This document shows positions 20,334-39,595 of a stretch of 64,000 bases of DNA, piece after piece (positions within the stretch are counted from its first letter, which is position 1; each line of letters starts with the position of its first letter). Below the pieces are notes generated by a model that saw only the letters and a list, made by a program, of their open reading frames with translations, searched no databases and had not been told where the DNA came from. Source of the stretch: Haloarcula limicola (GTDB lineage Archaea; Halobacteriota; Halobacteria; Halobacteriales; Haloarculaceae); contig NZ_WRXM01000005.1 in the NCBI RefSeq assembly GCF_010119205.1, positions 62,001-126,000 of the forward strand, given 5' to 3'. The translations under genes and the position numbers were made by a program.

Positions 20334-23288
20334 TCATCCGAAGATGTCATCGAAGTCGTCAGGTTCGTCGGTTAGACTTGTGTCCTCGTCTGATTTCGTT
20401 TGAGATTCGGAAGTCACACCGTCACTGTGTATCGTTTGTTGCGTGTTCTTAGTCGGTTCAAACACGTCTGGGTCCTCCACTGTACCGAGGAAGACGGGGC
20501 CATCTTGGAGGATGGTAAGCAGGTGATTGTGCTCATTCACGATGATCGTCCCGCCGCCTTTCTCGCGGCGGACGAATTCGATGACCTCTTCGAAGGTCTC
20601 GGTCGATAGATACTGCCGACCGTTCCGAGTCTTTTCGAATAATCGACCGCGGCTATCGACACTTACGCGTTTGATGGGTTCACGCGTCCCTTCGTAGTCA
20701 TCACCAATCGTCAACTCGTCTGGGTCTGGAATAATTTCTGGCTCTGGACGAGGTGGGTACTCTTCGGGGTCAGCTGGTCTAATTTGGCCGTCAGAGTAAC
20801 TCTCATCGCCCTCACGCTCCCAGATTTTGTGTTTGACTTTAGCGCTGGCCAGCTCTTCCTGCCAATCGTACTCTTGGAAGATGCGTTCATCGACGGTATC
20901 ACGCGCATAGAGAACGTACAGAGTTGACTCCTGTGAGATATCGTCGCCGGTCCGGAGAATCCGCCCGAGTGTCTGGATACGCTGACGGATACTACTGCTG
21001 GACACCCGTACGATACCGACGTCGGCACTCGGAACGTCGACTCCCTCGATGAGCGCTTTCACGCTCAGCATGACGTTCGCCATGTCGTCCTCGCGGAACC
21101 AATCCATCGCGATATCATTCCAGATGTCACGAGAGTGACCTGAGTGATACATCACGGGCCAGTAATCAGTATCTGCGAAAAGTGTCTCGACCGCTTGGTC
21201 GACTTCTTCAAGCCCCTCAAACGTCTCGTAGAGACGCCGGTGCTCTGGGGCATCATCTGCCAATTCGCCCGTTCGATTATTCTCCCCACGCCGCTCGACA
21301 GGAGCGATGAGTTGTTCGAGCTGTTCAATGCGCTCTTGGAAGACGATGGCTTTCTGGTCGGCGGTAACTGTTTGTTCCAACAAATCTAGCGTGATCGCTT
21401 GTCGTGCGGCCGCGTTTGCTACTAATTCACGTCGCTCCTGTGTATACTGAAAGTAATCCGATATCGGGCCGGTTGGACCATCCGTGTTGTTTCGAATAAC
21501 TTGGAGTTTTCTGGCAAAACTCCCGCTCAGCTCGTGGAGACGGTGGTCGTATCGCTGCTTTATTTCCTTGACAGCATTCGATACCTGGCGCGAAAGTTCT
21601 TCGTAGGCGCGCCGTTCAGGGTCGGCTAACTCGAACCCAACATATTCTATCGTAAATTCGGGGATGAGACCGCGTTGTATCCCCTCATCGTATGTAAGTC
21701 GGTAGTATATCTCGCCAAGCTCTCGGAGCAGTATTTTATCTGCGGAGGTCAGCTCATCCTCTCGAGAGATTGGCGTTGCTGAGAGACCAAGTGAGGCTGC
21801 TCGAGGGTAGGAAAAAATATTCGAGAACTTTTCGCCAGTGTAGCGGTGACACTCGTCAGCAACGAGTAGGTGGTCGGGTTCGTCTGCTTGTTGGAGAGCT
21901 TCACGAAGGTAGTCATTTTTGACCGCGCTGTTGACGATACTGACCATAATTCGGCAGTCCCCAAAGTCGTCTTTGTGCCCACCGCCGGCCCAGCCGATCT
22001 CATCAATAGGCACGTTCAGCGTCGAGACGAGCTCCGTGAGCCACTGATGCAGCAAGACCTTCGTCGGCACGATAACCGTTGCTACTCGGTCATCGTCTTG
22101 TTGAAGCCACCGTCGCAACACCTCCAACGCCATTACCGTCTTCCCAGCACCAGTTACAACTTGAGCGATACCTGTCTCTGGGGTACGGCCATTGTCATCA
22201 GAAAACCACCTATCGGCTGCTTCTCGCTGCCAACCGTACAGCGAGAACCCATCTGAGAATGTATATGAGTCTCGGTCTGAGTCGGCCAGTAATTCGAGGT
22301 CAGCAATAGAGATACCACTGCCTGCCGAAATGCGAATCCGTTGGGCCTCTCGCTCGGTATCGGCGTTTCGCATGCGTTCGAGAACGCCTGCTGAGAGACC
22401 ACGTAGCGATTTCGAGTCCAAAAATTCGTACTGAGCTATCACTTCGTTTCGGAGATCTCTCCGACGGTTCTGTGCTTCCCGATATTCATTTTTCCGGCGA
22501 AGCTCGTCACCAGTGTTACCGTCCCGGGTTGCTTTCTGAAGATAATTCCGCCAGAACGTCTTATACCACTGTCTGCGCTTATACCAGCCCCCGGACTCGC
22601 GGTACATGTAGTACTTCATCATGTCCCGCTTGGCAGTCCGAGACGGTGGGTCAACTGTGGTACCCTCACGCTTGAGCCGACTCTCGAGCGTATCGAAAAT
22701 ATCTGTATTCCGGAAGCGTCGTTTATATCGTTCGACGACTTCCTCGCTTGTCGTATTATATGTGTGCCCGTCTTTTTCGAGTACACCAAGTATCCGGAGG
22801 AGATCAGGATAGCCCCGAACCCCCTCCTCGTTGAATTCATAGCCGTGGTTGGCTGCGAGCCGATTTTGGATTTCACCGAACTTGAGCCCATCAGATGCGG
22901 CTTCAACTGTTCGAAGTATCCGGTCGAGACCCTCAATCCCCTCCGGTTTTTCGCCCATCGCAACCCAGCTTCGTTTGAGTGATTTCCAGACGAACTCGGA
23001 GAAGGCTAAGTCTCCATGGAACCAGTCTGTGGCAAACGGTGACGGGCGAACGCCATCATCGGTACGTTGGATGACCCCTAGGTTTGCAAACGTTGGAAGA
23101 ATCCGATCAAGATACGAGTCGGAGTACTGTTCTCCGGTATCTGGCTTCAGCAAATGCCGTTGACATCGGTCTCGGAATGTTGCCCATGCTAGTGGACCTG
23201 ACGCTTCCACAACCACTCCGATAACTGTTCGATAGCGCTCTTCTTCGGTCGCTACGCCGATTATCGGCGTCGGAAAGCGTCGGCCCAT
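20334..23288 (-). CDS. large SF2 helicase with N-terminal winged helices and C-terminal repeat module
   Basis: A 984-residue protein. Residues 1 to about 195 contain two winged-helix-like units, the second ending LRILGVLEKDGHTYNTT. A basic helical linker follows. The SF2 core has motif Q-like FSLYGWQREAADRW, Walker A VTGAGKTVMA (about 376), motif II VADECHRYTGE (about 477), SATPISRED, and motif VI RQRIQTLGRILRTG. This looks like the XPB/type III restriction branch. Residues about 870-950 after the helicase match the repeat module of the two neighbouring proteins (GGGTIIVNEHNHLLTIL...VFLGTVED). It is the last gene of an operon whose gaps are two bases each. I infer a DNA translocase of a defence system; no nuclease motif is seen in it. 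Confidence 0.82.
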   Translation of the reverse strand: MGRRFPTPIIGVATEEERYRTVIGVVVEASGPLAWATFRDRCQRHLLKPDTGEQYSDSYLDRILPTFANLGVIQRTDDGVRPSPFATDWFHGDLAFSEFVWKSLKRSWVAMGEKPEGIEGLDRILRTVEAASDGLKFGEIQNRLAANHGYEFNEEGVRGYPDLLRILGVLEKDGHTYNTTSEEVVERYKRRFRNTDIFDTLESRLKREGTTVDPPSRTAKRDMMKYYMYRESGGWYKRRQWYKTFWRNYLQKATRDGNTGDELRRKNEYREAQNRRRDLRNEVIAQYEFLDSKSLRGLSAGVLERMRNADTEREAQRIRISAGSGISIADLELLADSDRDSYTFSDGFSLYGWQREAADRWFSDDNGRTPETGIAQVVTGAGKTVMALEVLRRWLQQDDDRVATVIVPTKVLLHQWLTELVSTLNVPIDEIGWAGGGHKDDFGDCRIMVSIVNSAVKNDYLREALQQADEPDHLLVADECHRYTGEKFSNIFSYPRAASLGLSATPISREDELTSADKILLRELGEIYYRLTYDEGIQRGLIPEFTIEYVGFELADPERRAYEELSRQVSNAVKEIKQRYDHRLHELSGSFARKLQVIRNNTDGPTGPISDYFQYTQERRELVANAAARQAITLDLLEQTVTADQKAIVFQERIEQLEQLIAPVERRGENNRTGELADDAPEHRRLYETFEGLEEVDQAVETLFADTDYWPVMYHSGHSRDIWNDIAMDWFREDDMANVMLSVKALIEGVDVPSADVGIVRVSSSSIRQRIQTLGRILRTGDDISQESTLYVLYARDTVDERIFQEYDWQEELASAKVKHKIWEREGDESYSDGQIRPADPEEYPPRPEPEIIPDPDELTIGDDYEGTREPIKRVSVDSRGRLFEKTRNGRQYLSTETFEEVIEFVRREKGGGTIIVNEHNHLLTILQDGPVFLGTVEDPDVFEPTKNTQQTIHSDGVTSESQTKSDEDTSLTDEPDDFDDIFG

Positions 23289-23290
23289 GG

Positions 23291-24187
23291 TCAGTAGTCC
23301 GAGAGCTCTTCGCCGTGGGCAGCAGCGACGTAGTAGGTCTCATCCTCGACGACAGGTCGTGGAATCAGCCCGTCATCAAACTGCGAGAGATGCCCGATAT
23401 AGAGCGGCAAATGGCCCTCTTCTGGATTACCGCCGCCCGTCACCTTGAGCCTGCGGGTAACCAGCCGCTGGGCTGCTGTGTCATTTTGTCGCTCAGTTTT
23501 TTGCTCCCACTTCGAGTGAATTGCAGCGAGTTCCGATTTTTTGGACTCTGGAACCTGCTGCTGTGGGACGTTCACGAATACGTGACCGTACTCATTAATG
23601 TATAGACGTCCGGCAGTGGTCCGGAATTCCTGGTAGGCTTCGATAAGTTCTGGGTGCTCGAATGCCGAGTAGAACCGGTAATCCTGCCACTTCCAGATAA
23701 GCCTATTGTCGTAGCTGACTGCCCATCGCTCACCATGATTGAACGGGAACCCACTCCAAACAGTGACGTTGCTCGCCTCTATCTCTGGATTTACTTGAAT
23801 ATCAAAATCAGGTTCGCCGTCGAGTGTACCGAGGTAGACTGGTATCCAGCCAGAGTCGACGGGTGCCTGATTTGCGTAGGCGTACTCGCTACTCTCTATC
23901 TTCGTCAAGACCTCGCCGCCTGCGGTGACGCGAACGCTCCCCTTCCCGCTCCCCCGTGACTTACCGAGTTCACTGAGTCGCTCAAGGAGCCCTGTGGGCG
24001 GATCAACCATCGCCACCAAGTCATTGTACTTCCACTGAAAAACGGTCTGTTTGTGCTCTCTCGACGTGACGAGGCTATACCGTGACCCACGGTATGCAGA
24101 GGGCCATGGCATCCCTGGTTCGATTTCCACGTCTTGAGCATCTGCTATCGGCACCGTCGTCGTTTCGTCGGTGAGTCTGGCACTCAT
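23291..24187 (-). CDS. two-module protein, paralogue of the gene at 38699
   Basis: A 298-residue protein of a family I do not recognise. It contains two copies of a beta-rich module. Copy one (about residues 27-125) runs from WPSAYRGSRYSL through GSVRVTAGGEVLTKI to VYLGTLDG; copy two (about 148-270) runs from FPFNHGERWAVS through GRLYINEYGHVFVNV to LYIGHLSQFDDGL. By eye about half of all residues match the 298-residue protein at 38699-39595, including identical APVDSGWIPVY and GFPFNHGERW. It is separated by two bases from both neighbours in its operon. The conserved Trp/Tyr/Gly pattern suggests a small beta domain for binding a ligand or partner. No catalytic residues are evident. Confidence 0.75.
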   Translation of the reverse strand: MSARLTDETTTVPIADAQDVEIEPGMPWPSAYRGSRYSLVTSREHKQTVFQWKYNDLVAMVDPPTGLLERLSELGKSRGSGKGSVRVTAGGEVLTKIESSEYAYANQAPVDSGWIPVYLGTLDGEPDFDIQVNPEIEASNVTVWSGFPFNHGERWAVSYDNRLIWKWQDYRFYSAFEHPELIEAYQEFRTTAGRLYINEYGHVFVNVPQQQVPESKKSELAAIHSKWEQKTERQNDTAAQRLVTRRLKVTGGGNPEEGHLPLYIGHLSQFDDGLIPRPVVEDETYYVAAAHGEELSDY

Positions 24188-24189
24188 CC

Positions 24190-25125
24190 TTACTCCTCTT
24201 TCTTCTCGATATTGTCACGCATCCAGTCGACAGGGTCGTCATCAAAGCGAGGCACATCGTCTGCCTCATCAGTCGACGGTATGTCTTCCTCAGAAGGTTG
24301 CTGCTGACTCTCTGTCTCGTGTGCAGCGGGTGACGTAGTCGAGGTCCGTCCCAGTCCACTCGCCCAAGATGAGAGCGCATCGCGTTCTTCCGTCGAGAGT
24401 TCGTCCGTGAGCGACCGTGGCTCCGTGACTTCGATTGTGGCGTCGCCGACGTTACCGATATATATGGGTAACATTTCCACGCCCCGCTCTTTCCGGAGCT
24501 TGATGATGTTCTGTACCACTCGTGGGAGGTCCCCAAACTGCGCTTGAACCTCTCCGGGTGCAGGATGTGATGGAACCAGGGTGATCACGTCGCCCCATGG
24601 CGTTATCCGGAATGACCCGCCACTGGATTTGTAGCGACGAAGCGTCTCGAGAATATCCTGTGGGAATTTTCCATCCACCATGTGGCGTCGATTGGTCGAT
24701 CCGTTCTGCCACCAGACGCGTTCCCCAGCGAACGAATAGCGGCTGCCATCATAGACGCTGGGCCACAGGTCGCCTGAGGAGAGTTCATCCGGCCGGAGTG
24801 GAATACCGAACTCCGGATTGTCCTGCGGTACGAGTTCTCCATCGAGTTCGATATCGCCGACATAGATGTCGATGTAGTCATCTGACTCGTCCTCTTCGAC
24901 TCTCGTCAGTACGTGTCCATCCTCAGTGATATGAATGCGACCGCCGAGATGCTTCAGTTCTAGGAGTGTCTCGACGAGTTCGGTGGGCGGCGATGACAGC
25001 TCTAATCGGTCAGTTCCGCTGTATAACTGCCACCAGATACTGCCGTTCGGGCTGATCTGTAGACTGAATCCGCGGTAATGATTCGGCCACTCATCACCGG
25101 CAGATAGTGAGGTAATATCCCCCAT
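24190..25125 (-). CDS. divergent two-module protein
   Basis: About 311 residues from the ATG at 25125 (MGDITS); a GTG three codons earlier is possible. The first 230 residues contain two copies of the module of the neighbouring gene: WPNHYRGFSL...GGRIHITEDGHVLTRV...IYVGDIELDG (about 10-95) and WPSVYDGSRYSF...GGSFRITPWGDVITLV...LPIYIGNVGD (about 120-225). The last 80 residues are acidic and Ser/Thr rich. It is the first gene of the operon, about 200 bases downstream of the 165-residue gene. No family is known to me. Sharing a module with its neighbours suggests that they assemble together. Confidence 0.72.
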   Translation of the reverse strand: MGDITSLSAGDEWPNHYRGFSLQISPNGSIWWQLYSGTDRLELSSPPTELVETLLELKHLGGRIHITEDGHVLTRVEEDESDDYIDIYVGDIELDGELVPQDNPEFGIPLRPDELSSGDLWPSVYDGSRYSFAGERVWWQNGSTNRRHMVDGKFPQDILETLRRYKSSGGSFRITPWGDVITLVPSHPAPGEVQAQFGDLPRVVQNIIKLRKERGVEMLPIYIGNVGDATIEVTEPRSLTDELSTEERDALSSWASGLGRTSTTSPAAHETESQQQPSEEDIPSTDEADDVPRFDDDPVDWMRDNIEKKEE

Positions 25126-25333
25126 ATGATACACAGATTGAACGTTATTAGTACAGAAATAGGTTACGGTACTGAAGAATACAGAACGATGAAATGGTTT
25201 TGCTAATCCTGCTGTCCGCTTCTATTATTCTTCTATCAGAGAGGCGAGCTTAGACTCTCTGCGAGAGAATACTTCTTATTTGGCGGTCGTACTCTATCTC
25301 CTGAACATGCTGGCTACCACCACTTCAGACCGT

Positions 25334-25831
25334 TTACTCTCCGATCTTACTTTCGTCGAAACTTGCGGCGATGGTCCCGAGGATATCCTCCTGTTGTGAG
25401 TCACCATTCGGCTGCTCGTTCTCGATGAACGAAATAAGCCCATCTCTGGGGGTGCTTGCCGATTCTCCAAACTCCGTCTCGAGACGATCGATACCCGCTC
25501 GTGCATACCGAGCGAGCACTTCGAGTTGTAGCTGCGGGTCGACTAGTGCTTCAGGGTCACCTGTATGTTGATAAGCAATAGAGGCTGCAACCGCTCGATA
25601 GGTCGTCTTGTTCGCGAGGTGCATCCAGAGCATTTCACCTTGCGTGTTGCCTTCTCCCGCATACTCACTCGTATCGTAGCCCGCAGCGGTCGTTCGGTCG
25701 ATAGTTGCATACCCCACACACCCAGCGAAGACGAAGAGGTCGACGTAGGTATTGAAGAGGTCCCACTCTTCGACCATTTTGTCGTACAGCGAATGCCGAT
25801 AGTAGTTCTGTCGAATAGTTGATTCTGGCAT
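25334..25831 (-). CDS. 165-aa protein next to DndD-like ATPase
   Basis: A mainly helical 165-residue protein, two bases downstream of the DndD-like gene and so in the same operon. The N-terminal part, YDKMVEEWDLFNTYVDLFVFAGCVGYAT, resembles in pattern the small Dnd-system-associated proteins in which a helix rich in aromatic residues is followed by an AAxxGF-type turn. I give that similarity from memory and with caution. The C-terminal 40 residues are acidic. It may be the accessory or regulatory subunit of the ATPase. Confidence 0.65.
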   Translation of the reverse strand: MPESTIRQNYYRHSLYDKMVEEWDLFNTYVDLFVFAGCVGYATIDRTTAAGYDTSEYAGEGNTQGEMLWMHLANKTTYRAVAASIAYQHTGDPEALVDPQLQLEVLARYARAGIDRLETEFGESASTPRDGLISFIENEQPNGDSQQEDILGTIAASFDESKIGE

Positions 25832-25833
25832 GG

Positions 25834-27867
25834 TTAGGGCTCCGTAACCGCAGTTTCGTTTTCAATCGTTGTCTGGGGGAATGTCTCTGCACTGTCACCA
25901 GCGTCGTACTCGAGACGATACTGCTGCCCAGCAATCGCGGAAAGTTCGCTTGCAACCGGTCCTCGCCACTGTGAGTCTGTCACGAGGATGATTACCTGCT
26001 CAGCCATTTCTGGAATGACCCGGCTCACCTGTCGACGGTGGTCATCATCGAGGGCCCCGAACGGGGAGTCCATCATGATAGGATAGATACCGCCGCTGAA
26101 ATACTCTGTATCGTCGCTCGATTCGTAACGTTCTCGGGCGATCTGGACCAGACTTCCGATGAAGGTGAGACTTGCAATTTGGCGCTCACCACGCGATTTC
26201 TCTACTTCGAGATACTCGTTTTCGACCTGGTCTTTGATGTGGAGTTCAAAGGCGTCTGTAATCTCTGCCTGATATCCCTTGGTCGCGATCTCTTCGAAGG
26301 TCTGTTCGACAAGTTTATTCGACCAGTTGCGGACACGTTTTTGCAGGTCGTCAAACGATGCTTCCAGCTGTCGACGGACTGATTCTGTAGCCCGCATCCG
26401 CTTTCGCGCGAGTTCGGCCTCCTTTTTATCTTGCCGTGCTTCGTCGATATCGGTGTTTACCTCTGCCAGCTCTTCATCTAACTCTTCAATCTTGATCTCG
26501 TGGCGGACGATATCGCTTTCCGTTTCGCTGAGTTGGTCAGCCTTCGAATCTCGTGCTGACTCCAGTTCTGCTGGAGTCTCTCCGGTCTGGGGGTCAACAA
26601 CGTCTATCTTTTCGACTTGGGCGCTGATCTCACTCAGCTGTTCTGCGATCTCCTGTTCCCGGTCACGGAGTTTCGAGCGCCGTTCGAGTAGCTCTGAGAT
26701 GCGCTCGAAATAGTCGGTCCGCTCTGAATCCAGCTGGGTGAGATGTGAGATGATACGTATTGCAGCCTGATCGAACCCTTCAGTTACATCCTCTGATTGG
26801 TACGCTGTGACCTTGGCGTATGGCTCTGTGTCCGGTTCGAGCGGGCGGCCACAGAGACAGGTGCCGTCAGTTAGCAATCGGTCGATGAACTGGTTCGACA
26901 CCTCCGAGGGGAGTACACCCTCCTCGCGGAGTCGGTCGAGGTCCTTTGCCGTCTCTTCGACCGCTGGCATGGCAAAAGGGAGATGGCCCTGAGTGCTGAT
27001 CGTGTCTTCGATGTCGTCGTTAATGGCGTCGACCTCTGCGTTGATTCGTTCGAGTTCCGACTCGAGTTCTGTACGCTCTTCTTCTAACTCGGATGAATCG
27101 TCTATTTGTTCGAGTTTGTGCTTGATCTCGTCGATCTCCTCGTTTAACCGAGCTTTCGTGTCCTGGGCCGCACCAAGTGCCTGTTCTCGATCGGCTTTCT
27201 CCTCGCGAAGCGTTGTCCGTTGGTCCATCAGGGACTTGAGCTCCGTACTCGCAGCCTCCTGTAGTTCGTCTTCGAAGCGCTCCTCGACAGCCTCGAGGTG
27301 GGTGATCGAGCGCTCGATAATCTTGAGCCCCATGATATTCTGGATAGCGGCTCTGATCTCGTCTTGACTCCGCGTCTCTGAGAGGCGAGTGATATACTCG
27401 CCATCGAAGAAGAACAACGAACTCAGCCGCGTTGGGAGTATCTGTTCGATGGCGTCTTGTGGGTTATTTCGCGTGCCTCTGGTACCATCGGGTTCTGAAA
27501 ACGTCAGCGAGAGACCGTTGTCGATGATCTCCCCTTCGTAGTCGCTTGCCGACTGTTTCTGGTAGTCGACCCAACGGGTGAGTTCATAGTCGATATCTTC
27601 GTCTTCGAACTCGAGTACGGCCTCGACACGGACAGTGTCACCCGTCTCAGTCTCGGCGAACGACCCTTGACTAGCAAGTTTATCGGGCCGGAGGGTGAAG
27701 TCCACTTCGTCATATAGCACCCACGTCAGAGCGTTTTTCAGCGTCGTTTTCCCCGAGCCGTTCTGGCCGTGGACGACAGTAACGTTTTGCTCACCACCTT
27801 GTGCGAACGTAATTGTTCCCGTCCGAAACTGGCGGAAGTTCGTGAGATGGAGTCGGTGTAATCGCAT
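25834..27867 (-). CDS. DndD/Rad50-like SMC-type ATPase
   Basis: A 677-residue ABC-type ATPase with a split head. The N-terminus MRLHRLHLTNFRQF leads to Walker A HGQNGSGKTTLKNAL (about residues 34-47) and LSSLFFFDGEYITRLS (about 150). A coiled coil of roughly 330 residues follows, interrupted near residue 335 by GTCLCGRPLEPD, a degenerate zinc-hook-like turn. The C-terminal half-site has the Walker B/D-loop MMDSPFGALDDDHRRQV and VTDSQW. The FFFDGE and DSPFGALD motifs are typical of DndD of DNA phosphorothioation systems, but no DndA, DndC or DndE gene is in the window. Inference: a DNA-end or structure sensor in a restriction-type defence operon. Confidence 0.83.
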   Translation of the reverse strand: MRLHRLHLTNFRQFRTGTITFAQGGEQNVTVVHGQNGSGKTTLKNALTWVLYDEVDFTLRPDKLASQGSFAETETGDTVRVEAVLEFEDEDIDYELTRWVDYQKQSASDYEGEIIDNGLSLTFSEPDGTRGTRNNPQDAIEQILPTRLSSLFFFDGEYITRLSETRSQDEIRAAIQNIMGLKIIERSITHLEAVEERFEDELQEAASTELKSLMDQRTTLREEKADREQALGAAQDTKARLNEEIDEIKHKLEQIDDSSELEEERTELESELERINAEVDAINDDIEDTISTQGHLPFAMPAVEETAKDLDRLREEGVLPSEVSNQFIDRLLTDGTCLCGRPLEPDTEPYAKVTAYQSEDVTEGFDQAAIRIISHLTQLDSERTDYFERISELLERRSKLRDREQEIAEQLSEISAQVEKIDVVDPQTGETPAELESARDSKADQLSETESDIVRHEIKIEELDEELAEVNTDIDEARQDKKEAELARKRMRATESVRRQLEASFDDLQKRVRNWSNKLVEQTFEEIATKGYQAEITDAFELHIKDQVENEYLEVEKSRGERQIASLTFIGSLVQIARERYESSDDTEYFSGGIYPIMMDSPFGALDDDHRRQVSRVIPEMAEQVIILVTDSQWRGPVASELSAIAGQQYRLEYDAGDSAETFPQTTIENETAVTEP

Positions 27868-27874
27868 AAGTAGA

Positions 27875-28033
27875 TTACTCCGGAATCTCCTCTTCGACGA
27901 TCTCTTTTAATTCAGGGATAATATTGTGTGGCTTACGCATGTGAAGTTGCTTCTTTTCTGCACGAAGTGTGCGCTCGCGAATGCGTGCCAGCGTCTCGGT
28001 ACTAACGTCCTCTGTGTCTTCACTGTCAGTCAT
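27875..28033 (-). CDS. 52-aa charged protein upstream of the DndD-like gene
   Basis: A short gene (ATG at 28033, TAA at 27875-27877) seven bases ahead of the DndD-like start. The protein is helical and charged, with ETLARIRERTLRAEKKQLHM in the middle and an acidic end (EIVEEEIPE). The tight spacing, a good ATG and a coherent amphipathic sequence argue that it is real. It may be a small subunit or a leader whose translation is coupled to the ATPase. No family recognised. Confidence 0.6.
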   Translation of the reverse strand: MTDSEDTEDVSTETLARIRERTLRAEKKQLHMRKPHNIIPELKEIVEEEIPE

Positions 28034-28151
28034 ATACGATCACCTGACAATCTATGGGTATTAATCTGGCTGGTACGCAGTGCATGAAGTCTAGTGCAGT
28101 AGTTCTCAGTGCAGCCTTGGAGTAGCGGTTGTCTCTGTTGGGTCATGGATG

Positions 28152-29576
28152 TCACATTTGGCGCAGGTTGAACTCGCGTTTGAGTTCGCCGATGGCGCCA
28201 GCATCGGTTGGAATGCCATCAATATCGGCATCTGGGTGGTTTCGGGCCGATTCAGCGAATAGCGTGACCCGTTCGAGTTCACGTTTGATGAGATTGCGCT
28301 CGGTCGTGAACTGCGATTCGTCACTAGCCGCGTCTTCGCGGATCGCCGGTGGTGGGGCGACGACGAAATCGTGGATCACGGCGTGGTGTTTCCCCGGATA
28401 GGTTCGCAGGATGCGGCCTCGGCGCTGGACGAATTGCCGAGGGTTCGAGGAACTCGCGAGCATGTACGCAGTCCGTGTCGCCGGAACGTCCACGCCTTCG
28501 TCGAGACAGCGGATAGCGACCAATGCTTGAATTTCCTCCTTGTCGAAGCGCGATAACAAGGTCTGGCGTTCGCTTCGTGACTCATCGGCAGTAAAGCGCT
28601 CTGCACGCAAGCCAAGTTGGCTTCGAAGTCTTGAGACGGCCGCGTCGACGTGGCGTCGTGTTCGGGACGTGATGTCGCCTTCGACCGTCCCATCTCCGCA
28701 GTAGACGAGCGTGTGTTTCGTCTGCTGGTCGTATTCGAGTAACTCGACCAGCCGGTCGAGTTTTCGCTCGGCGGTCCCGACCAGTCGAGCGCGCTTGAAC
28801 AGTGCGAACTGCAGGTCCTTGTTCCCCTGGAGATCTGCATCACCGAGGTCGTCATCTGATTGGCTGATGAGGCGGGCTATCTTTTTCGAGAGGCCGAGAT
28901 ACTCGTCGGCTTCATCTTCGGTCAACTCGACGACGTGTGGGATATAGTAATACTCACAGAGTGCGCCATTTTGAATTGCCTCTGTGAGGTCGTACTCATA
29001 GACGACGCCGCCGAAGTACTCCATGAGGTCTTCGGTCCCCGCTTCATCGTAGAACCGTTCTGGCGTTGCCGAGAGGCCCAGCCGAAGGTGGATATCTGTT
29101 GGCAATGCCGATTTGAGGTGTGGCGCACCGAGGTGGTGGACCTCGTCGGCTATTAGCATGAATCGCTCGCGATTGACCCGGCTCAACACTCGCTGGAACG
29201 TCTCAGAAGCGAAGGTAGCGTGGGTTGTGATAATGACGAGACTCTCACGAACGCCCAAGTCGAACTCTGCGAGTTCACCTTCGAGGCGTTCCTGCCATTG
29301 GCGACGGCTCTCGTAGGCAAGGATCGGTGAGCCACCGAAATCTTGGACATCGTCTGCCCACTGGTCAACGAGGTGTTGATATGGGGCAGCGATGACCAGC
29401 GCCAGTCGGCCATCGTATTGCTCGGCGACGTGGGCAGCCGTCAGCAGGGAGGTAACTGTTTTACCGGTCCCAGTTGCCATCCGAAGCACGCCACGGCCAC
29501 CAGCAGCCGCCCAGCGTTGCACTGCCGCTTGTTGGTACTCGCGAGGTTCGACCCAGTCTGGGCGTGCGAATGTCAC
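28152..29576 (-). CDS. SF2 DEAH-type helicase, Dnd-restriction-like
   Basis: A 474-residue SF2 helicase beginning with GTG and overlapping the upstream 66-aa gene by four bases. Motifs: EPREYQQAAVQRW (Q-like), Walker A MATGTGKTVTSL (about residues 33-44), motif II LIADEVHHLGAP, motif III LGLSATPERF, motif V RCLDEGVDVP and motif VI QFVQRRGRILRTYPGK. Length and motif wording recall the helicases annotated as DNA phosphorothioation system restriction enzymes (memory, not checked). With the DndD-like ATPase downstream, this forms a Dnd-like restriction module that lacks the sulfur-modification genes. Codon use and GC are slightly higher than in the AddAB-like operon. Confidence 0.82.
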   Translation of the reverse strand: MTFARPDWVEPREYQQAAVQRWAAAGGRGVLRMATGTGKTVTSLLTAAHVAEQYDGRLALVIAAPYQHLVDQWADDVQDFGGSPILAYESRRQWQERLEGELAEFDLGVRESLVIITTHATFASETFQRVLSRVNRERFMLIADEVHHLGAPHLKSALPTDIHLRLGLSATPERFYDEAGTEDLMEYFGGVVYEYDLTEAIQNGALCEYYYIPHVVELTEDEADEYLGLSKKIARLISQSDDDLGDADLQGNKDLQFALFKRARLVGTAERKLDRLVELLEYDQQTKHTLVYCGDGTVEGDITSRTRRHVDAAVSRLRSQLGLRAERFTADESRSERQTLLSRFDKEEIQALVAIRCLDEGVDVPATRTAYMLASSSNPRQFVQRRGRILRTYPGKHHAVIHDFVVAPPPAIREDAASDESQFTTERNLIKRELERVTLFAESARNHPDADIDGIPTDAGAIGELKREFNLRQM

Positions 29577-31156: not shown

Positions 31157-31230
31157 CTGTCTGGACTAAGTACGGTCTCTGACTCGTCAGAAGGGAGATA
31201 TTTACCGTCGCGGAGACACGGAAGATGTCG

Positions 31231-32160
31231 TCAATCGAGGATATGTTCGGTTGTAGTGACATCTCCGTCGGCTGTTCGTCGTAAAGACACAATCTGATCT
31301 GGGGTTTCGATGACTACGGATTCTCCGCCGGGTTCCCCTTGCGTATTTCGAATGACGTTCTCACAGAGGACCGCCCCTTTTTGTGTTACAGTGTCATGTC
31401 GCGTATGCCCTACAATTTGCGAGGGGGCGTCCTGGGACAGATACTGGAAATCTAACCACACGAGGCCAGCTGGTGGATGTTTGAGATGTCCGTCGCCCAT
31501 GCCTAGCACTAATGGATACTCGTCGACGACTGCCTGCTGAACTTGAGTGTCGGTCAGCGTTTCATGCGCATCTTGCAATTTGCCGACGGCAGCAACAAGT
31601 CGAGAATTGACCGTTTCGACATCGTAGGTCTCGGGATGTCCGGCGTGGGCATAGACTGCTGAATACCCCTCGTAGGCTGCGATCACGTACCCCCTCTGAA
31701 TAGCTTCGAATAGTGTTTGCCGACCTTCTGAGCCAACGCTATCACAGAACCACCCATCCCAGTGAAACAGGTCTGGCGTCAATACCGCCATTTCATGATT
31801 CCCAAGCGTTACGCGGACTCGACCAGGTGGAGCTTCGTTGATGAGTCGCGCGACTAGCTGCAGAGTCTCGATATTGTGGGGGCCGCGGTCAATTAGATCG
31901 CCGTTGAACAGAAGGACATAGTTGTTATCTGCCCAGTGGAGGTAGTCATCTGCGGACTGGGTAACGACCGGCTCATAGTCGGGGTGGTTCGTGAGAGTCA
32001 GTAACGCGCTGCGAGCTTCTGCAAGATAGCCATGAATGTCGCTAATGCTCACAATTGCAGGGGTCTGGTCGGCAAAGGCAGCGATCGAATCTCTGACCTG
32101 CTCACTTATATTTTGCGACGACTCTGTCTCTAACGGAAACGGCTGGGTGCCTCCTGCCAT
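31231..32160 (-). CDS. PPP-family metallophosphoesterase
   Basis: A 309-residue calcineurin-like phosphoesterase. The three signatures of the PPP group are present and in order: SISDIHGYL (GDxHG variant SDIHG, about residue 40), FNGDLIDRGP (GDxxDRG) and VTLGNHEMAVL (GNHE), followed by later histidines (AHAGHPE, GHTRHD). These bind two metals and hydrolyse phosphomonoesters or diadenosine polyphosphates; PrpE/ApaH and archaeal Ser/Thr phosphatases share the core. The C-terminus QTPDQIVSLRRTADG is close to family ends. It converges on the nuclease-like gene with a gap of 74 bases. A signalling or dephosphorylation role within the island is possible but speculative. Confidence 0.88.
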   Translation of the reverse strand: MAGGTQPFPLETESSQNISEQVRDSIAAFADQTPAIVSISDIHGYLAEARSALLTLTNHPDYEPVVTQSADDYLHWADNNYVLLFNGDLIDRGPHNIETLQLVARLINEAPPGRVRVTLGNHEMAVLTPDLFHWDGWFCDSVGSEGRQTLFEAIQRGYVIAAYEGYSAVYAHAGHPETYDVETVNSRLVAAVGKLQDAHETLTDTQVQQAVVDEYPLVLGMGDGHLKHPPAGLVWLDFQYLSQDAPSQIVGHTRHDTVTQKGAVLCENVIRNTQGEPGGESVVIETPDQIVSLRRTADGDVTTTEHILD

Positions 32161-32520: not shown

Positions 32521-34299
32521 ATGTCTGAAGACGCGTCAGAATCCCCGCCGGCGCCGGGATCTTCGTACTCTATAGATGACCCGTCTGTCGCGTCCACTGC
32601 GCTCGCTGAGTCGGGACAGGATTCGACTGGTCATCTACTTAACATACAGGCACAGCAGTTTGCGATCGCACAGGGACAACAAGAACTCCTCTCAGTCGAG
32701 GAGATCAAAGACCGAATCAAACTGTTGGATCACCAGCTTGAAGCAGCGCATCAGGCCCTCTTTCAGATGGGGGGAGGCGCGTTGTTTGCTGATGAAGTCG
32801 GGCTGGGGAAGACAATCGAGATCGGCATGGTCCTCAAGGAGATGAATTTCCGGGACACGCGAGATAGTTTTCTCATACTGACCCCAGCTCAGTTAGCACC
32901 CCAGTGGCAAACAGAACTCCAGGAAAAGTTCGGGCTCGACTTCGTCTGTAACTATGACGACGAGTTCCAAGGGTTCGACGCTCACGATAAGATCATCGCA
33001 AGTGTCGACACGGCGAAATCGAAAACGAACAGGGCAGATGTCCTCTCGCGGCGCTGGGACGTCCTCGTTCTCGATGAAGCCCATTACGTTCGGAATCGGG
33101 ATACAGACCGCTACGAACTCATCGAGGAACTCACCTATGGAGAGGCGTTTTTCGCCACCGCGACGCCCATTCAGAATGACATCTCCGATCTGTACAATAT
33201 TGTCGACCTTATCCGGCCGGGCATGCTCGGCACGCAGAAACAGTTCGATAACCGGTACGTTGTGGATAGTGACGATGCACAGATACAGCGTGGTGATGAG
33301 CTACAGTCGAAACTCGACCGTGTGATGATTCGGAATCGCCGTGAGCAGACGGATATCGATTTCACCAATCGAGCGGTTCACACGAACGTCTTCGAGCCAT
33401 CAACCGCTGAACGAGATCTCTACGATGCTGTCACCAACTACGTGAGGTCCAACTATTCGAGTAAGGGTGCGCGGCATCTCGTTTTATTCACGCTCCAGAA
33501 AGAAGTTGTATCGAGTCCGTATGCTGTCGAACAGACGATTGAAAACTGGGTCGGAGACGATGAGAAACGGCTGACCGCAAGCGAGGAAGACGCACTCGCG
33601 GAGATCAGCGAGAGCATCGCCAATATAGATGAGACAACCAAGCAAACGCGGTTGCGAAACGTAATCGAGACCATCCAGGAGCAAGCCGAGACGACACGAG
33701 CCGTTGTCTTCACTCAGTTCCGACCTACGCAGGACGCGATCGCTGATAGTGTCCGTGAACTCGATTTGCCGGTCCACATCGTTAACGGAGATCTGTCTAG
33801 TCAAGCGAAAGAACGCAAAGTCGCCGATTTTGAATCTGAAGGCGGTATTATGGTTGCGACAGATTCCATCAGTGAAGGACGGAATATGCAGTTCTGTAAC
33901 GTACTGGTCAACTACGACTTGCCGTGGAATCCGATGAAGGTCGAACAGCGAATCGGCCGCATCGACCGTATCGGACAGGACCGAGAAGTCCACGTTTTCA
34001 ACATGGCACTTGCGGATACTATCGAAGAACACGTCCTCGACAAGTTATTCGGCAAGATCGATCTTTTCAGCCAGTCTATCGGAGGCCTTCGAGACATTCT
34101 CTCGCGGATGGAACAGTCTGGATCGGACTTCGAACGAGAAGTCTTCGAGAAGCTCCGAAATGCAGACTCGCAGGTTGAGTTAGAGAACAACTTCGAGGAG
34201 ATGGCGGTCGACCTCGAAAAGAACACCGAAGCGGCAGAGAAGATGAACGACTTCAATCGAAGTGTCTTCGATAGCTTCGAGTTCGGAGAGAGTGCATGA
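32521..34299 (+). CDS. SNF2-family helicase (RapA/HepA-like core)
   Basis: A 592-residue SF2/SNF2 translocase. The N-terminus is Ser/Pro rich. Motif I is ADEVGLGKTIEIGM (about residues 95-107), Ia LTPAQLAPQWQTEL, motif II LVLDEAHYVRN (about 183), motif III ATATPIQND, motif IV region VVFTQFR, motif V VATDSISEGRNMQ and motif VI EQRIGRIDRIGQ. The DEVGLGKT and GRIDRIGQ wording is that of RapA/HepA and DISARM-type helicases. It is shorter than those because the usual C-terminal domain appears to be on the next gene. Its stop overlaps the next ATG by four bases. It is the first gene of a compact operon. Confidence 0.9.
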   Translation: MSEDASESPPAPGSSYSIDDPSVASTALAESGQDSTGHLLNIQAQQFAIAQGQQELLSVEEIKDRIKLLDHQLEAAHQALFQMGGGALFADEVGLGKTIEIGMVLKEMNFRDTRDSFLILTPAQLAPQWQTELQEKFGLDFVCNYDDEFQGFDAHDKIIASVDTAKSKTNRADVLSRRWDVLVLDEAHYVRNRDTDRYELIEELTYGEAFFATATPIQNDISDLYNIVDLIRPGMLGTQKQFDNRYVVDSDDAQIQRGDELQSKLDRVMIRNRREQTDIDFTNRAVHTNVFEPSTAERDLYDAVTNYVRSNYSSKGARHLVLFTLQKEVVSSPYAVEQTIENWVGDDEKRLTASEEDALAEISESIANIDETTKQTRLRNVIETIQEQAETTRAVVFTQFRPTQDAIADSVRELDLPVHIVNGDLSSQAKERKVADFESEGGIMVATDSISEGRNMQFCNVLVNYDLPWNPMKVEQRIGRIDRIGQDREVHVFNMALADTIEEHVLDKLFGKIDLFSQSIGGLRDILSRMEQSGSDFEREVFEKLRNADSQVELENNFEEMAVDLEKNTEAAEKMNDFNRSVFDSFEFGESA

Positions 34300-37200
34300 G
34301 TGTCGACGATATTGGAACGCTCAACCGGTTAGAGATCCGGCGGTTCGCTGCAACCGTAATCGAATCGTACGGTGGAACAGTCAACCGTGGGGATGGGGAG
34401 TCGTGGGACGTCACACTGCCAGGGCCACTGACCAGACTTGCTGATGATCGAGAGGTAAGTGTCGTCTTCGACCCGAAAGATCAGAAACCTGGTCGTCCAG
34501 AGCTACTCGTTCAGCCTGGGTCGCTGGCCTTTAACGAGCTACTCGAATTAGGCAGACAAGAAGTGTCGGTTGGGAAATTATATCTCACTGCAGACGACCT
34601 CCAGGTGCAGTTGCCAGATGCGGTCGACGTTTCAGAATTTGCGGTGACTGTCGGTGAGTTCGAACCGAAGCAAATGGCCCGGGCAGTGTCGTTCCATTTT
34701 CTCGTCGAGTTAGAAAGCGTCTCGTCGTTCCATCGGGAGCGCCTCGAGACGGTGTCGCTGGACCTGGCCAATGGAAGCCAGCTCCCGGAGCTCACAGACC
34801 GACTGTTAGCCCATACCGGCGCTCTTTCACGAGGACACCAGCCGACAGATATCGACCCGGACAGCGAGACGATCGAAGGGCGGTACGAGACCGCGGTCGA
34901 AGAGGTACAGACCCGTATCGATGATGAGGTCACCGAGTTAGTTCAGGAAGCCGAGGAGACGGTCACAGGGCGAAAAGAAGAGATTGAAACGGTGTACGAA
35001 CAACGACGCGAAGAACTGGAGGTTCGCATCACCGAGCAGAAAGAACAGGTGCGAAAGTGGCGTGAGAAGAAAAAGCGCGCTCGGAAATCGAGTACGCGAA
35101 AGAAATATAAGCAGAATCTCTCCAGAGCCCAGCAGGAACTACGGGAGGTCCAGCAGGCTGTTGCCGACGAGCGGGAAGCCCTTCGCGAAAAAGAGGAACA
35201 CGAGATCATCGAGACAGCTGACCGCCACAGTCTGGAGGTTGATATCTCACTCGTTGGAATGACGCTAGTCACCCACGATATTGGTGCGCTTGCCCTCTCT
35301 TTTGATGACGGAGAACGGACTGGAGAGACGACGGCGCGATATGCGCCAGCCACAGATGGTATCATTGCCTTCGACTGTGAGACCTGCGGGACCGGGTTCG
35401 ATTCGACGACCCGCCCACAGGTTTGTGAATGCGGGAGTATCGTCTGTGCTGGCTGTCTCGATGTATGTGAATCCTGTCAGGTAACCGGCTGCCCTGACTG
35501 TGACACGCCAGTTATGGCCTGTGAGTTGTGTGGCGGCGTCGAATGTCACGACTGTGGATCCCTCTGTGAGACGTGCGAGCGCTCGGTTTGCTCACACCAT
35601 ATTTCGGTCTGTACTACGAGTTCTGATCCAACCTGTTTAGCTTGTGGCCAGGAGTGTACAACGTGTACTCACTTTCACAGTGAGAGTCATCTCAGCCGCT
35701 GTTGTGTCGATCAGGAATTCTACTGCCCAGACCACACTGCAGCGTGTGATACCTGTGGCGATACCGTCTCTACGCCACAGTTGGACGACTGTACAGCATG
35801 CGGGAACTCGTTGTGCCCCGACGACCGACTGACTTGCGCGACGTGTGATGAGACGAGATGTATCGACGACGTCATCGCCTGTGATGGCTGTGGTGGCTAT
35901 CACTGCACAGAGAGTGGTCTCACATGTGGCATCTGTGCGAATCAGTTCGGTGAGGAGCACCTCTCCGCGTGCGGTACCTGTGGCGAATCAGTCTGTGAGG
36001 CTGACCGGATCGAATGCTCGGCCTGCGATGACAGTACTTGTACCGACCACGCCTCGGACTGTGTCGAATGCGATGCTGCACTCTGTCCGGATCACATCTT
36101 CGAGTGTGATTGCTGCGGTGAGTCGGTTTGTGATGACCATCTCGACATCTGTGAGACTTGCGACCGGGCTATCTGTGAGACAGACCAGACCTTCTGTACT
36201 GTTTGTGACGCAGTTACCTGCCCAGATGATACTACAGCCTGCACTGCATGCGATGAGCCACTGTGTCCTGCGCACACTTCGACATGCGAAAGCTGTGGAA
36301 CTGCGCTGTGTCCGACTGATACGCTAACCTGTAGTGAACACGAGACGGCACTCTGTGCGACCCATGCTGAACAGTGTACGCAGTGTGATGAGGTCTACAG
36401 TCCATCAGTTGGAACGACGTGTGCCCACTGTGAGGATTTCGTCTGCACTCATGATTCAACCGAGTGTGACCACGAGGGAGACGTAGTTTGTGCTGCTCAC
36501 ATTGAGTCCTGTAGCGCCTGTGGCGATCAGTTCTGTCCCTCGCATCGGACAGTGACACATGATAGCGGTGAGACGCGCTGTTTCGACCATTCGACCCGCT
36601 GCACCGATTGCAACGAACAGTTTGCATCAGATGGTTTGGCCAACTGTGCCAAGTGTGGTGAGCCTGTCTGTGATGCAGATCAAGCTGACTGTGTGACGTG
36701 TGGCAAGACACTCTGCCAGACCCATCAAGGCCAGTGTACCGTCGACGAGGCGTCACACTGTCGCTCGCATCTCACGCCATGTGCTACCTGCGACGATACC
36801 GTTTGTACCGACCACGTCACTACCTGTACTGAGTGCGGTGACGAGCTCTGTCACGAACATACGACCGGCTGTACGATGTGTGATCGCCCACACTGTGGGG
36901 ACCATCTCGAAGATTGTGCTGCCTGTACTGACCCTCACTGTGCTGACCATCGTGAACGCTGTCAGGAGTGTGATTCGTGGTTCTGTGAGCAGCATCTCCA
37001 GGAGTGCAGTGATTGTGGCGACACTGTTTGTTCGGCTGATAGCCACCACTGTGCCAGCTGCGACGAGGTCACCTGTGAGACACACAGCGGTCAGTGCGCT
37101 CAGTGTGCGGAGACATTCTGTACTGAGCATTACACGGCCTGTAGCACGTGCGAGCAGCCGACCTGTCTCGAGCATGCACAGACATGCGTTGAGGGCGGTG

Positions 37201-37673
37201 GTCGTCACTGCAGTGACCACATGTCGTCGTGTGATGTCTGTACCGACGATTCCGACCAGGGTCGCCCCCTCTGTCCAGCCCATCGTCGGACATGTATTGT
37301 TGGCCAAGAGACGCTCTGCACAGAGCATTCACACTTCGGGCCGATCGCGGAACTAGCACTCTGTGCCGACCACCTTGTCGAATGCGATATGTGTCGACAG
37401 CGGGTCGCTGAAACCGAAATCACCGATGGCGAGTGCCAGACTTGCCAAAACCTCACAACAGCAGAAGAGCAAACGCGCGGACTAACAGCCAAACTCCCAG
37501 ACGACTTCGAGTTCTCTAAGCCGGCGCTTAGTGTGAATAGTCAGTATATCGTTGCTTACGGGACGCAACTCTTCGGTTCGAACGAGATTGTGGTCGTTGA
37601 GCGCGAGAGTGGAAGGACAGTTGAGCGGTATGGCGTCGGTTGGATCGCCTGGCTTACAGGGGGGCGATTATGA
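34296..37673 (+). CDS. giant cysteine-rich zinc-finger array protein (1125 aa, about 125 Cys)
   Basis: Three regions. Residues 1-150 have a WDVTLPGPL...VVFD...PELLVQPGSLAFNELLELG pattern resembling the C-terminal domain of RapA/SNF2 helicases, as if split from the preceding gene. Residues about 185-315 form a highly charged coiled coil (VEEVQTRIDDEVTELVQEAE onward, KKKRARKSSTRKKYKQN). Residues about 370-1060 are a tandem array of some 30 units of C-x2-C-(D/G)-x3-5-C-x2-(H/D)-x5-8, period 20-24 residues. By hand count there are about 125 cysteines. Each unit could hold one zinc, in treble-clef, B-box or RING-like fashion. The last 50 residues are a short beta domain. It overlaps the helicase by ATGA and the next gene by ATGA. 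The array probably binds DNA, protein or a modified base; nothing like it is familiar to me as a known system component. Confidence 0.88.
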   Translation: MSVDDIGTLNRLEIRRFAATVIESYGGTVNRGDGESWDVTLPGPLTRLADDREVSVVFDPKDQKPGRPELLVQPGSLAFNELLELGRQEVSVGKLYLTADDLQVQLPDAVDVSEFAVTVGEFEPKQMARAVSFHFLVELESVSSFHRERLETVSLDLANGSQLPELTDRLLAHTGALSRGHQPTDIDPDSETIEGRYETAVEEVQTRIDDEVTELVQEAEETVTGRKEEIETVYEQRREELEVRITEQKEQVRKWREKKKRARKSSTRKKYKQNLSRAQQELREVQQAVADEREALREKEEHEIIETADRHSLEVDISLVGMTLVTHDIGALALSFDDGERTGETTARYAPATDGIIAFDCETCGTGFDSTTRPQVCECGSIVCAGCLDVCESCQVTGCPDCDTPVMACELCGGVECHDCGSLCETCERSVCSHHISVCTTSSDPTCLACGQECTTCTHFHSESHLSRCCVDQEFYCPDHTAACDTCGDTVSTPQLDDCTACGNSLCPDDRLTCATCDETRCIDDVIACDGCGGYHCTESGLTCGICANQFGEEHLSACGTCGESVCEADRIECSACDDSTCTDHASDCVECDAALCPDHIFECDCCGESVCDDHLDICETCDRAICETDQTFCTVCDAVTCPDDTTACTACDEPLCPAHTSTCESCGTALCPTDTLTCSEHETALCATHAEQCTQCDEVYSPSVGTTCAHCEDFVCTHDSTECDHEGDVVCAAHIESCSACGDQFCPSHRTVTHDSGETRCFDHSTRCTDCNEQFASDGLANCAKCGEPVCDADQADCVTCGKTLCQTHQGQCTVDEASHCRSHLTPCATCDDTVCTDHVTTCTECGDELCHEHTTGCTMCDRPHCGDHLEDCAACTDPHCADHRERCQECDSWFCEQHLQECSDCGDTVCSADSHHCASCDEVTCETHSGQCAQCAETFCTEHYTACSTCEQPTCLEHAQTCVEGGGRHCSDHMSSCDVCTDDSDQGRPLCPAHRRTCIVGQETLCTEHSHFGPIAELALCADHLVECDMCRQRVAETEITDGECQTCQNLTTAEEQTRGLTAKLPDDFEFSKPALSVNSQYIVAYGTQLFGSNEIVVVERESGRTVERYGVGWIAWLTGGRL

Positions 37674-38692
37674 GACCCGGTATACTACTTCCCTCCTGGT
37701 ATCATACCGGAGATGTCAGGCAGACGGTCCACGCGGCGGCTGCCGCTGGGATAGAGACGGACGAAGTCGCATCTGTCCTGAGCGATGAGATATTCGATGA
37801 TATTCCGTTACAACGCGTCAAATCGATCGTCGAAGCGATTCCGACAGATGATGACCAAGCACCGGACGTCGAAAATTCGCTCTCACAGGCTGCGACAACA
37901 GACGCGGCGGCACGGCCACCGTTGGCCAATCGATGTACAGTAACTGATCTCGAGTATCTCTCGGCGAGAGAAGCGGCCCGCATTGTCGGTCTCGTCCTCG
38001 AATTATTCGATGGGAACACTCTCAGACCACCAGCCACCGAATCCGTCGAAGCTGACCTTCTCTGGCGTCGACAGTACATGAATGTCGGGCTCAAGATTAT
38101 CCCCCAACGGACGACTGTCGGTGTCGAGTCTATCGAGGCGCTCCGCAGCGGGCAACTTGTCCCGGACGATCTGCAGAGGCCGTCCGAACTTGCTATCGTC
38201 ACGAGCGGCAGATTTGATGAGGAGATACTGGCTGAGGCTGCGAACAACGATATCCACTGTTTCGACGCTGGCCACGTCGAGGAGTGGCTACTGCGGGCAC
38301 AGTTATCGCCGGACATCGTCGGGACCCTCCTCGAAAATGGGGAGAATCACGATGGCCCGCTCACGGATTTGGTCGACGTCCCACCGATCCCAGCGCCACG
38401 AACATCTACCGACCCTCTCGAAATTGAGCGAGCCTTCGATGTCGATAGCTACAACGTCGCGGCAGAGACGACCTCATCGGAACCACAGCCACAGGAATCG
38501 GGGACCACTTCGGCCCAATCTACGGGCGAGACGAGTGCTGCGCCCTCACAAACTGACGAAGCGGATCCAGAGACAGTAGCTGATCCACTAGCGGGCTCAC
38601 AACCACCGCCTGGGAAGACAGGGACGCTGTACGCGGATCCCGATGAAGACGGAGAGTATACTGCGTTCGACGACTACCTTGATGACCTCTAA
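37670..38692 (+). CDS. Mrr-like restriction-fold protein with altered active site
   Basis: About 340 residues from the ATG at 37670, which overlaps the stop of the cysteine-rich gene. Residues about 120-215 match the C-terminal half of the Mrr-type PD-(D/E)XK domain: IIPQRTTVGVESIEALRSG, then LAIVTSGRFDEEILAEAANNDIHCFDAGHVEEWL, where Mrr has a strand, the QxK, and then TSGxFT..A...A...(I)xLxDG. Here the usual QxK reads as Q-R, and no clear upstream D-x(n)-E is seen, so catalysis is doubtful. The last 110 residues are Ser/Thr/Pro/Glu rich and disordered. Two possibilities: a nuclease with a variant site, or a structural DNA-binding module. Confidence 0.62.
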   Translation: MRPGILLPSWYHTGDVRQTVHAAAAAGIETDEVASVLSDEIFDDIPLQRVKSIVEAIPTDDDQAPDVENSLSQAATTDAAARPPLANRCTVTDLEYLSAREAARIVGLVLELFDGNTLRPPATESVEADLLWRRQYMNVGLKIIPQRTTVGVESIEALRSGQLVPDDLQRPSELAIVTSGRFDEEILAEAANNDIHCFDAGHVEEWLLRAQLSPDIVGTLLENGENHDGPLTDLVDVPPIPAPRTSTDPLEIERAFDVDSYNVAAETTSSEPQPQESGTTSAQSTGETSAAPSQTDEADPETVADPLAGSQPPPGKTGTLYADPDEDGEYTAFDDYLDDL

Positions 38693-38698
38693 CTACCA

Positions 38699-39595
38699 AT
38701 GACTGCAAGCCTCGAGGAAGTATCCACGACCGTACCGATTACCGATGGCCAGTCCGTCTCGATCGAACCAGGGCAACCTTGGCCGTCTGCCTATCGCGGT
38801 TCGAAGTATAGCCTCGTTTCTGACGAGGACTATGACGACCCCGTCGTCAAATGGAAACAACGTGATCTCGCGATCTTCACGGACCCGCCCGACGGGCTTT
38901 GGCGTGCACTCGCGTTGCTGGGAAAAAGTGGTGGCTACGGGAGCTTTCGAGTCACTGCTGACAGCGAAATCATCACGAAAGTACCCGCTGATGAGTACAA
39001 ACACGTTGAACAGGCGCCGGTAGATAGTGGCTGGATTCCAGTGTACGTCGGCCAACTTTCCGGGACGATCGATTTTGACGAAGTCGACTCCGACCCGTCC
39101 ACGCCGAGCCGACAGCAAATTAACGTCTGGACTGGCTTTCCCTTCAACCATGGTGAACGATGGAGTGTCAGCCATGAAGGGACTCTGTTCTGGAAGTGGC
39201 GAGACTATCGGTTTGAGTCGACGTTCGACCACTCGGAACTCGTCGAGACCTATCAATCGTATCGTGGTACTGCTGGGCGACTCTATCTAACCGAATATGG
39301 GCACATCTGGGTGAACGTTCCAAAGAACGACATCGCGCCAGGAAAAGAGGGGGCGATTGGCACAGCAATCAAGGACTGGAAACGGGATGCTGAAGCCAGC
39401 GGTAATACCGCGACACTTCGGTTGGTAAACCGCCGGCTCGTTGCAACGAGTCGCGATGATGACCCGTCAACGGGTCACTTTCCGATCCATCTCGGTCATC
39501 TCCGGTCCTTCGATGACGGTCTGATTCCCAAACCGGTTGTCGACGATCCCTCCTACTATCAGGCTGTTTGTGAATACGAGCAAGTCTGGGAATGA
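38699..39595 (+). CDS. two-module protein, paralogue of the gene at 23291
   Basis: A 298-residue protein, identical in length to the one at 23291-24187 and matching it through its whole length; roughly half the residues agree by eye. Both modules are recognisable: PWPSAYRGSKYSLV...SFRVTADSEIITKV...PVYVGQLSG and GFPFNHGERWSVS...GRLYLTEYGHIWVNV...HLGHLRSFDDGL. It is six bases after the Mrr-like gene, the fourth and last gene of the SNF2 operon. Because each helicase cluster has one copy, this protein is likely a shared subunit type such as a recruiter or specificity factor. No catalytic residues are seen. Confidence 0.75.
   Translation: MTASLEEVSTTVPITDGQSVSIEPGQPWPSAYRGSKYSLVSDEDYDDPVVKWKQRDLAIFTDPPDGLWRALALLGKSGGYGSFRVTADSEIITKVPADEYKHVEQAPVDSGWIPVYVGQLSGTIDFDEVDSDPSTPSRQQINVWTGFPFNHGERWSVSHEGTLFWKWRDYRFESTFDHSELVETYQSYRGTAGRLYLTEYGHIWVNVPKNDIAPGKEGAIGTAIKDWKRDAEASGNTATLRLVNRRLVATSRDDDPSTGHFPIHLGHLRSFDDGLIPKPVVDDPSYYQAVCEYEQVWE

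Follow-up and report, generated by a model that had tools for sequence, protein, structure and literature searches.

The 64,000-nucleotide stretch of Haloarcula limicola analysed here (contig NZ_WRXM01000005.1, positions 62,001 to 126,000 of the forward strand; contig 5 of the genome designated G000; hereafter the window) carries two helicase gene clusters that share a repeated protein module. On the minus strand, the genes for ModA, ModB and the helicase HEL984 come after PbeD in a Pbe gene set, with gaps of 2 nucleotides (nt) between the three. On the plus strand, genes for an SNF2 helicase, the finger-array protein CYS, an Mrr-like protein and ModC are tightly packed, with overlaps or gaps of at most 6 nt (Table 1). 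Open reading frames (ORFs) were called mechanically. The coordinates that an initial annotation of this DNA had given for the module proteins and the helicase were confirmed on the window sequence, apart from a correction to the start of ModA (24190-25125), which begins at an ATG at 25125.

A repeated module in three proteins and a helicase

The module spans about 90-130 residues and is present in two copies each in ModA, ModB and ModC and in one at the C-terminus of HEL984, a count that the initial annotation had proposed and that profile-profile comparison bears out well above controls. Profiles were built from 19-28 relatives per family, and the hhalign probabilities, which are uncalibrated, were judged against two controls, 14 segments of unrelated profiles and, for each module, 80 comparisons with shuffled columns; the control maxima were 9% for unrelated profiles and 33.5% for shuffled modules (9% and 4% for the HEL984 C-terminal profile). 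ModA repeat 1 matches ModA repeat 2 at 98.2%, ModC repeat 1 at 97.9% and the HEL984 C-terminus at 96.1% (E 2.8e-9), while ModA repeat 2 matches ModC repeat 1 at 98.4% and ModC repeat 2 at 91.5%. Divergence is greatest in the second repeat of ModB and ModC, and since its direct match to repeat 1 (27%) lies inside the control range, it is joined to the family through ModA. The motif W-P-x2-Y-x-G, one of those from which the module had been noticed, is absent from this second repeat. ModB and ModC, said earlier to agree at about half of their residues, are 52% identical.

The module is a previously unrecognised domain family, as had been suspected: the libraries searched (Pfam, NCBIfam, PADLOC in its 2023 version, PDB sequences, and PDB and viral folds) returned no known domain that corresponds to it. 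No Pfam, NCBIfam or PADLOC family matched ModB or ModC, ModA drew only a weak NCBIfam row (E 0.19), and no module match was found among PDB sequences. The identifiers of six relatives did not turn up in the open-licence papers searched, where nothing similar was found by topic either; subscription journals were not covered. AlphaFold models of ModC and ModA (predicted local distance difference test, pLDDT, 92 and 83) place one helix and six to seven strands in each module, in the layout bbb-a-bb-(insert)-b with a variable insert in all four modelled copies (both repeats of each protein). The module is thus alpha/beta and not the purely beta domain first described. Searches of these models with Foldseek and VIA returned no significant match among PDB folds and none in the viral fold library.

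In the Foldseek rankings, PCNA chains head the list for ModA (best E 0.0086) and come near the top for ModC (E 0.64), which raises the idea that the module is a far-diverged element of sliding-clamp (PCNA/DnaN) type and wraps around or holds DNA for the helicase. Superposition on clamps is poor, however, with a template modelling (TM) score of at most 0.19 and a VIA Z of at most 3.3, and these rows are not counted as a match. A clamp domain also differs from the layout of one helix and six to seven strands seen in the module, and we consider a clamp very improbable.

Table 1. Genes and modules of the two clusters in the window
Feature	Coordinates	Strand	Description
HEL984	20334..23288	-	SF2 (ResIII/DEAD) helicase, 984 amino acids (aa); ResIII 77 bits
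HEL984 C-terminal module	20475..20720	-	About residues 857-938; hhalign match to ModA repeat 1
ModB	23291..24187	-	Two modules in 298 aa; ModC paralogue of type II loci, not in the type I ModC clade
ModA	24190..25125	-	Two modules and acidic tail with DDDPxDW; tail kept in most members
PbeD / DndE cognate (DNA phosphorothioation-associated protein 4)	25334..25831	-	TIGR04062 match below the cut-off; directly after PbeC
PbeC	25834..27867	-	CxC-type ABC ATPase; PADLOC PbeC 725.8 bits, full length; TCLCG at residue 337
PbeB-like protein	27875..28033	-	52 aa; resembles ORFs in the same place elsewhere
PbeA helicase	28152..29576	-	Without N-terminal HKD (PLD) nuclease; aligns with residues 248-681 of the PbeA model (682 residues)
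SNF2 helicase	32521..34299	+	DrmD/RapA-like core; SNF2-rel_dom 111 bits; DrmD 256 bits, core only
CYS	34296..37673	+	Coiled-coil N-terminus, then C-x2-C finger array with 15-residue period
Mrr-like protein	37670..38692	+	Dead active site; conserved tail GTLYADPxEDGxxxAFD
ModC	38699..39595	+	298 aa; modules about 38762-39064 and 39128-39502; type I clade

Distribution and exchange of partners

ModA occurs in 22 of 391 Halobacteria genomes sampled at one per species, and the profile of the roughly 340-aa N-terminal region that is specific to the HEL984 family occurs in exactly the same 22. Identical random sets of 22 would arise with a probability near 10^-36, a figure that is indicative only, given the relatedness of the genomes. 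ModA and HEL984 are adjacent at every locus, beside ModB or ModC, and the latter are found in the same 22 genomes and in three more with decayed or fragmentary copies; ModA, ModB/ModC and HEL984 form an obligate trio, hereafter the cassette. The helicase motifs GAGKT, DECH, SATP and QTLGR are present in the window copy of HEL984 and in nearly all relatives. Plasmid searches found relatives in haloarchaea only, and a pattern-based scan of GTDB contigs with ModC, which is not a wide survey of other phyla, found two haloarchaea only. The viral contigs of IMG/VR yielded no relatives, and viral carriage of the cassette was rejected on that account.

The cassette exists in two versions, in agreement with the proposal that the two clusters are versions of one thing, and both versions have ModA, HEL984 and a ModB/ModC paralogue in common. 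In type I, known from 12 genomes, HEL984-ModA lies beside SNF2-CYS-Mrr-ModC, usually divergently and in G098 on one strand (L020); the loci of G290 and G314 are interrupted and Mrr is impaired in G135. Intact type I loci have ModC after SNF2-CYS-Mrr; the neighbours of ModB are others. Type II is ModA-ModB-HEL984 with partners that vary: a Pbe set in the window and G125, DndCDEA with an HKD-bearing Pbe set in G030, a PD-(D/E)XK protein pair in four near-identical loci, and a pair of prokaryotic Argonaute (pAgo) and PLD proteins in G091. No clear neighbour set accompanies it in G200 and G343. In trees, type I ModC forms one clade (16 rows, support 97/99) and type I HEL984 another (100/99), and the HEL984 of the window groups with type II.

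The Argonaute locus lies on Natrinema pellirubrum pNATPE02 (L031:4737-9495), where the genes directly upstream of ModA-ModB-HEL984 encode a pAgo whose N-terminus is OB-fold-like and a member of the PLD family. Argonaute was rejected as a partner because this is a single locus and the pAgo-PLD pair is common in haloarchaea that lack the cassette.

Two unrelated systems might have come to neighbour each other in a defence island, with a domain common by descent only. The region is indeed rich in other defence-like genes, and the type I and type II cores are also found alone. This account sits poorly with the identity of the ModA and HEL984 genome sets and with two further observations. In the window and G343, the partner set is of type I but the sole ModA-HEL984 is of type II, and a Haloquadratum contig (L005) carries SNF2-CYS-Mrr-ModC-ModA-ModB-HEL984 as seven consecutive genes on one strand before it ends inside HEL984. 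The clusters belong together on the strength of these arrangements, and their pairing, first noticed in the window, recurs both in L005 and in G343, which has both sets on one contig. We judge chance neighbourhood quite improbable.

Missing nucleases and the proposed role of the cassette

The initial annotation missed PbeABCD in the minus cluster, where the nuclease domain is missing. Most Pbe systems have an HKD nuclease domain at the N-terminus of PbeA, fused to its SF2 helicase. Pfam found no PLD domain in the window PbeA, from which model residues 1-247 are absent, while the full-length PbeA of L034 has one; HKD is likewise absent from the PbeA of G125. Because PbeA keeps the helicase half only, the minus cluster is classed from its predicted domains as a nuclease-less variant of a Pbe (CxC ATPase-DndE) system and not as a canonical member. 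The PbeD match to TIGR04062 (E 1.6e-7, 31.6 bits) falls below the 74-bit cut-off, though its size and position fit, and the PbeB-like ORF is similar to ORFs of 48 aa and about 58 aa at the equivalent site in Halorhabdus tiamatea and L023. DndC accompanies part of the known Pbe systems. The DndC model matched in G030, G343 and G215 and found no match in the window's genome, so phosphorothioation was rejected as the self-mark there.

The Mrr-like protein of the plus cluster, whose catalytic death had been overlooked, has lost its active site. It is homologous over its length to the intact Mrr of other SNF2-CYS-Mrr operons (hhalign 99.1%), and the catalytic Q-A-K is replaced by K-I-I, R-V-V and similar triplets in all 15 type I copies; with Q-x-K gone, Mrr was rejected as the active nuclease. 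In five SNF2-CYS-Mrr operons from genomes that lack ModA and HEL984, Mrr keeps GVD...QAK and matches Pfam Mrr_cat at 73-74 bits. These compact operons (L048-L052), with a CYS of 675 aa, an intact Mrr and no cassette, are possibly an undescribed restriction-type system in their own right.

The Pbe set closest to the HKD-less one of the window is that of H. tiamatea, with McrB and an McrC-like protein in the position that ModA-ModB-HEL984 takes in the window. G030 has a fragment resembling McrC immediately upstream of ModA. The H. tiamatea locus (pHTIA, L062:8992-18952) runs from an HKD-less PbeA-PbeB-PbeC-PbeD into McrB/McrC-like genes, an apparent Pbe-McrBC hybrid that an IS66 transposase gene interrupts.

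Taken together, the loss of Q-x-K, the loss of HKD and the presence of McrBC in the same slot suggest that the cassette may stand in for the cutting step. Several observations weigh against this and against the effector reading set out below. Neighbours retain a nuclease in G030, G091 and the G318 group, so replacement is not general; the HKD-less Pbe set of Natrinema sp. SYSU A 869 has neither the cassette nor McrBC in its next genes; and the pAgo neighbour was seen once, pAgo-PLD pairs being common without the cassette and hence not counted among its partners.

The reading we favour, at a little under an even chance, is that ModA, ModB/ModC and HEL984 make up an effector cassette, a helicase with adaptors, that is exchangeable between haloarchaeal defence systems. 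HEL984 would be the motor, an ATP-driven SF2 helicase or translocase, and the repeated module a protein-interaction domain. ModA would be the invariable connection to HEL984, and ModB or ModC the connection, specific to each partner, to a recognition complex: in the window, the Pbe ATPase-DndE-helicase complex for ModB and the SNF2-zinc-finger-pseudo-Mrr complex for ModC. On meeting unmarked foreign DNA, the recognition complex would pass it to HEL984, which would block its replication by translocation or unwinding. PbeABCD is reported to halt viral replication without DNA cleavage (PMC6459918), which lends some support to this last step. Neither the type I set nor the window's Pbe set with the cassette contains an intact known nuclease, and the conserved tails of ModA, the Mrr-like protein and HEL984 would suit a docking role. 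The homology of the modules, the obligate trio, the swaps of partners and the losses of HKD and of the Mrr active site are shown here; the roles of the cassette in defence and as adaptor, the order of events and the replication block are what we infer. A stronger form, in which the cassette is a nuclease-free plug-in of helicase and repeat-domain adaptors with a new fold, to which at least two recognition systems of separate origin leave the killing or blocking, is possible but doubtful.

The modules might instead sense a nucleic acid or ligand, such as modified or single-stranded DNA, with the partners as effectors. Invariant aromatic residues and arginines are numerous in them (YRGS, WW, RLVxRRL) and would suit such a role, as would the nucleases of some partners (pAgo-PLD, PD-(D/E)XK, Dnd-Pbe). 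Yet no intact known nuclease that could act as effector is encoded in type I or in the window's Pbe set, and the Pbe and SNF2-CYS-Mrr sets both exist without modules and thus have their own recognition; sensing is a fairly unlikely role. It is also unlikely that the modules act as the weapon themselves, as a nuclease or another enzyme that has escaped recognition and is supplied by HEL984. Such an activity would account for the missing known nucleases in both clusters, and ModC has invariant polar residues (E153, H178, R189, E199, H202, N206), but these are not common to the repeats: ModC repeat 2 and HEL984 carry E-H, and ModA carries other residues. No enzyme fold was matched.

Related systems and significance

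The window's set resembles described PbeABCD systems in its PbeA helicase, PbeB-like protein, CxC PbeC and putative DndE-like PbeD, in the usual order (PMC6459918, PMC10853773). It differs in a PbeA without HKD, in a genome without a detected DndC and in the presence of ModA-ModB-HEL984 after PbeD. The plus cluster shares three genes, their order and a homologous Mrr with haloarchaeal SNF2-coiled-coil/zinc-finger-Mrr operons (six genomes by profile), which differ from it in an intact Mrr site, a shorter CYS and the lack of ModC, ModA and HEL984; as far as we found, those operons are undescribed. The window's CYS has 40 CxxC pairs at a spacing of 15. DISARM offers a further comparison. DrmD is similar to the SNF2 core, and its C-terminus has a weak match (E 0.013) in CYS residues 194-309, but SNF2 scores far under the cut-offs (NF038318, 255.7 bits against 950; NF038317, 250.4 against 610), and PADLOC found none of the DISARM partners DrmB, DrmC and methylase among the cluster proteins scanned. 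McrBC occupies the same slot after the HKD-less PbeABCD of H. tiamatea but consists of a GTPase and a nuclease, for which no relation in sequence to ModA, ModB or HEL984 was found. The pair of SNF2 and CYS is part of a larger family, since an SNF2 protein and a CYS-like partner of about 400 aa stand beside a 1079-aa DUF499/HmaC-like ATPase in many haloarchaea (L053-L059).

Other genes of interest surround the clusters. An AddB/AddA-like pair (PD-(D/E)XK and UvrD helicase; 14692-20198, plus strand) adjoins HEL984; orthologous pairs lie beside ModC in L014 (G319) and L024 (G125), and AddAB-type genes are near several cassette loci. An McrB/McrC-like pair 3 kb past the plus cluster (42475-46427, plus strand) is related to the McrBC that follows PbeABCD in H. 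tiamatea. Between the clusters are a metallophosphoesterase gene (31231-32160, minus strand) and an unannotated 341-aa ORF (30131-31156, plus strand) with what looks like a PD-(D/E)XK nuclease signature (HDAKVEF...VDEKA); the latter has no Pfam, NCBIfam or PADLOC match and is not labelled in other cassette loci. An HNH protein with zinc-ribbon-like cysteines and a transposase lie just after ModC (39681-40952, minus strand).

How PbeABCD stops viral DNA replication is disputed: one group reports no cleavage, and another holds that the HKD nuclease must cut (PMC6459918, PMC10853773). A natural HKD-less Pbe set that comes with a helicase and putative adaptors, and a close relative with McrBC in that slot, make the question testable through deletion or exchange of the cassette. 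The SNF2-Mrr set provides a second case, as loci that have the cassette encode an Mrr without its active site. The analysis yields a new domain family and about two dozen natural loci. The cassette's position beside different antivirus-type gene sets, often ones whose DNA-cutting enzyme is absent or dead, suggests that it is a component, so far undescribed, that archaeal antivirus systems can interchange.

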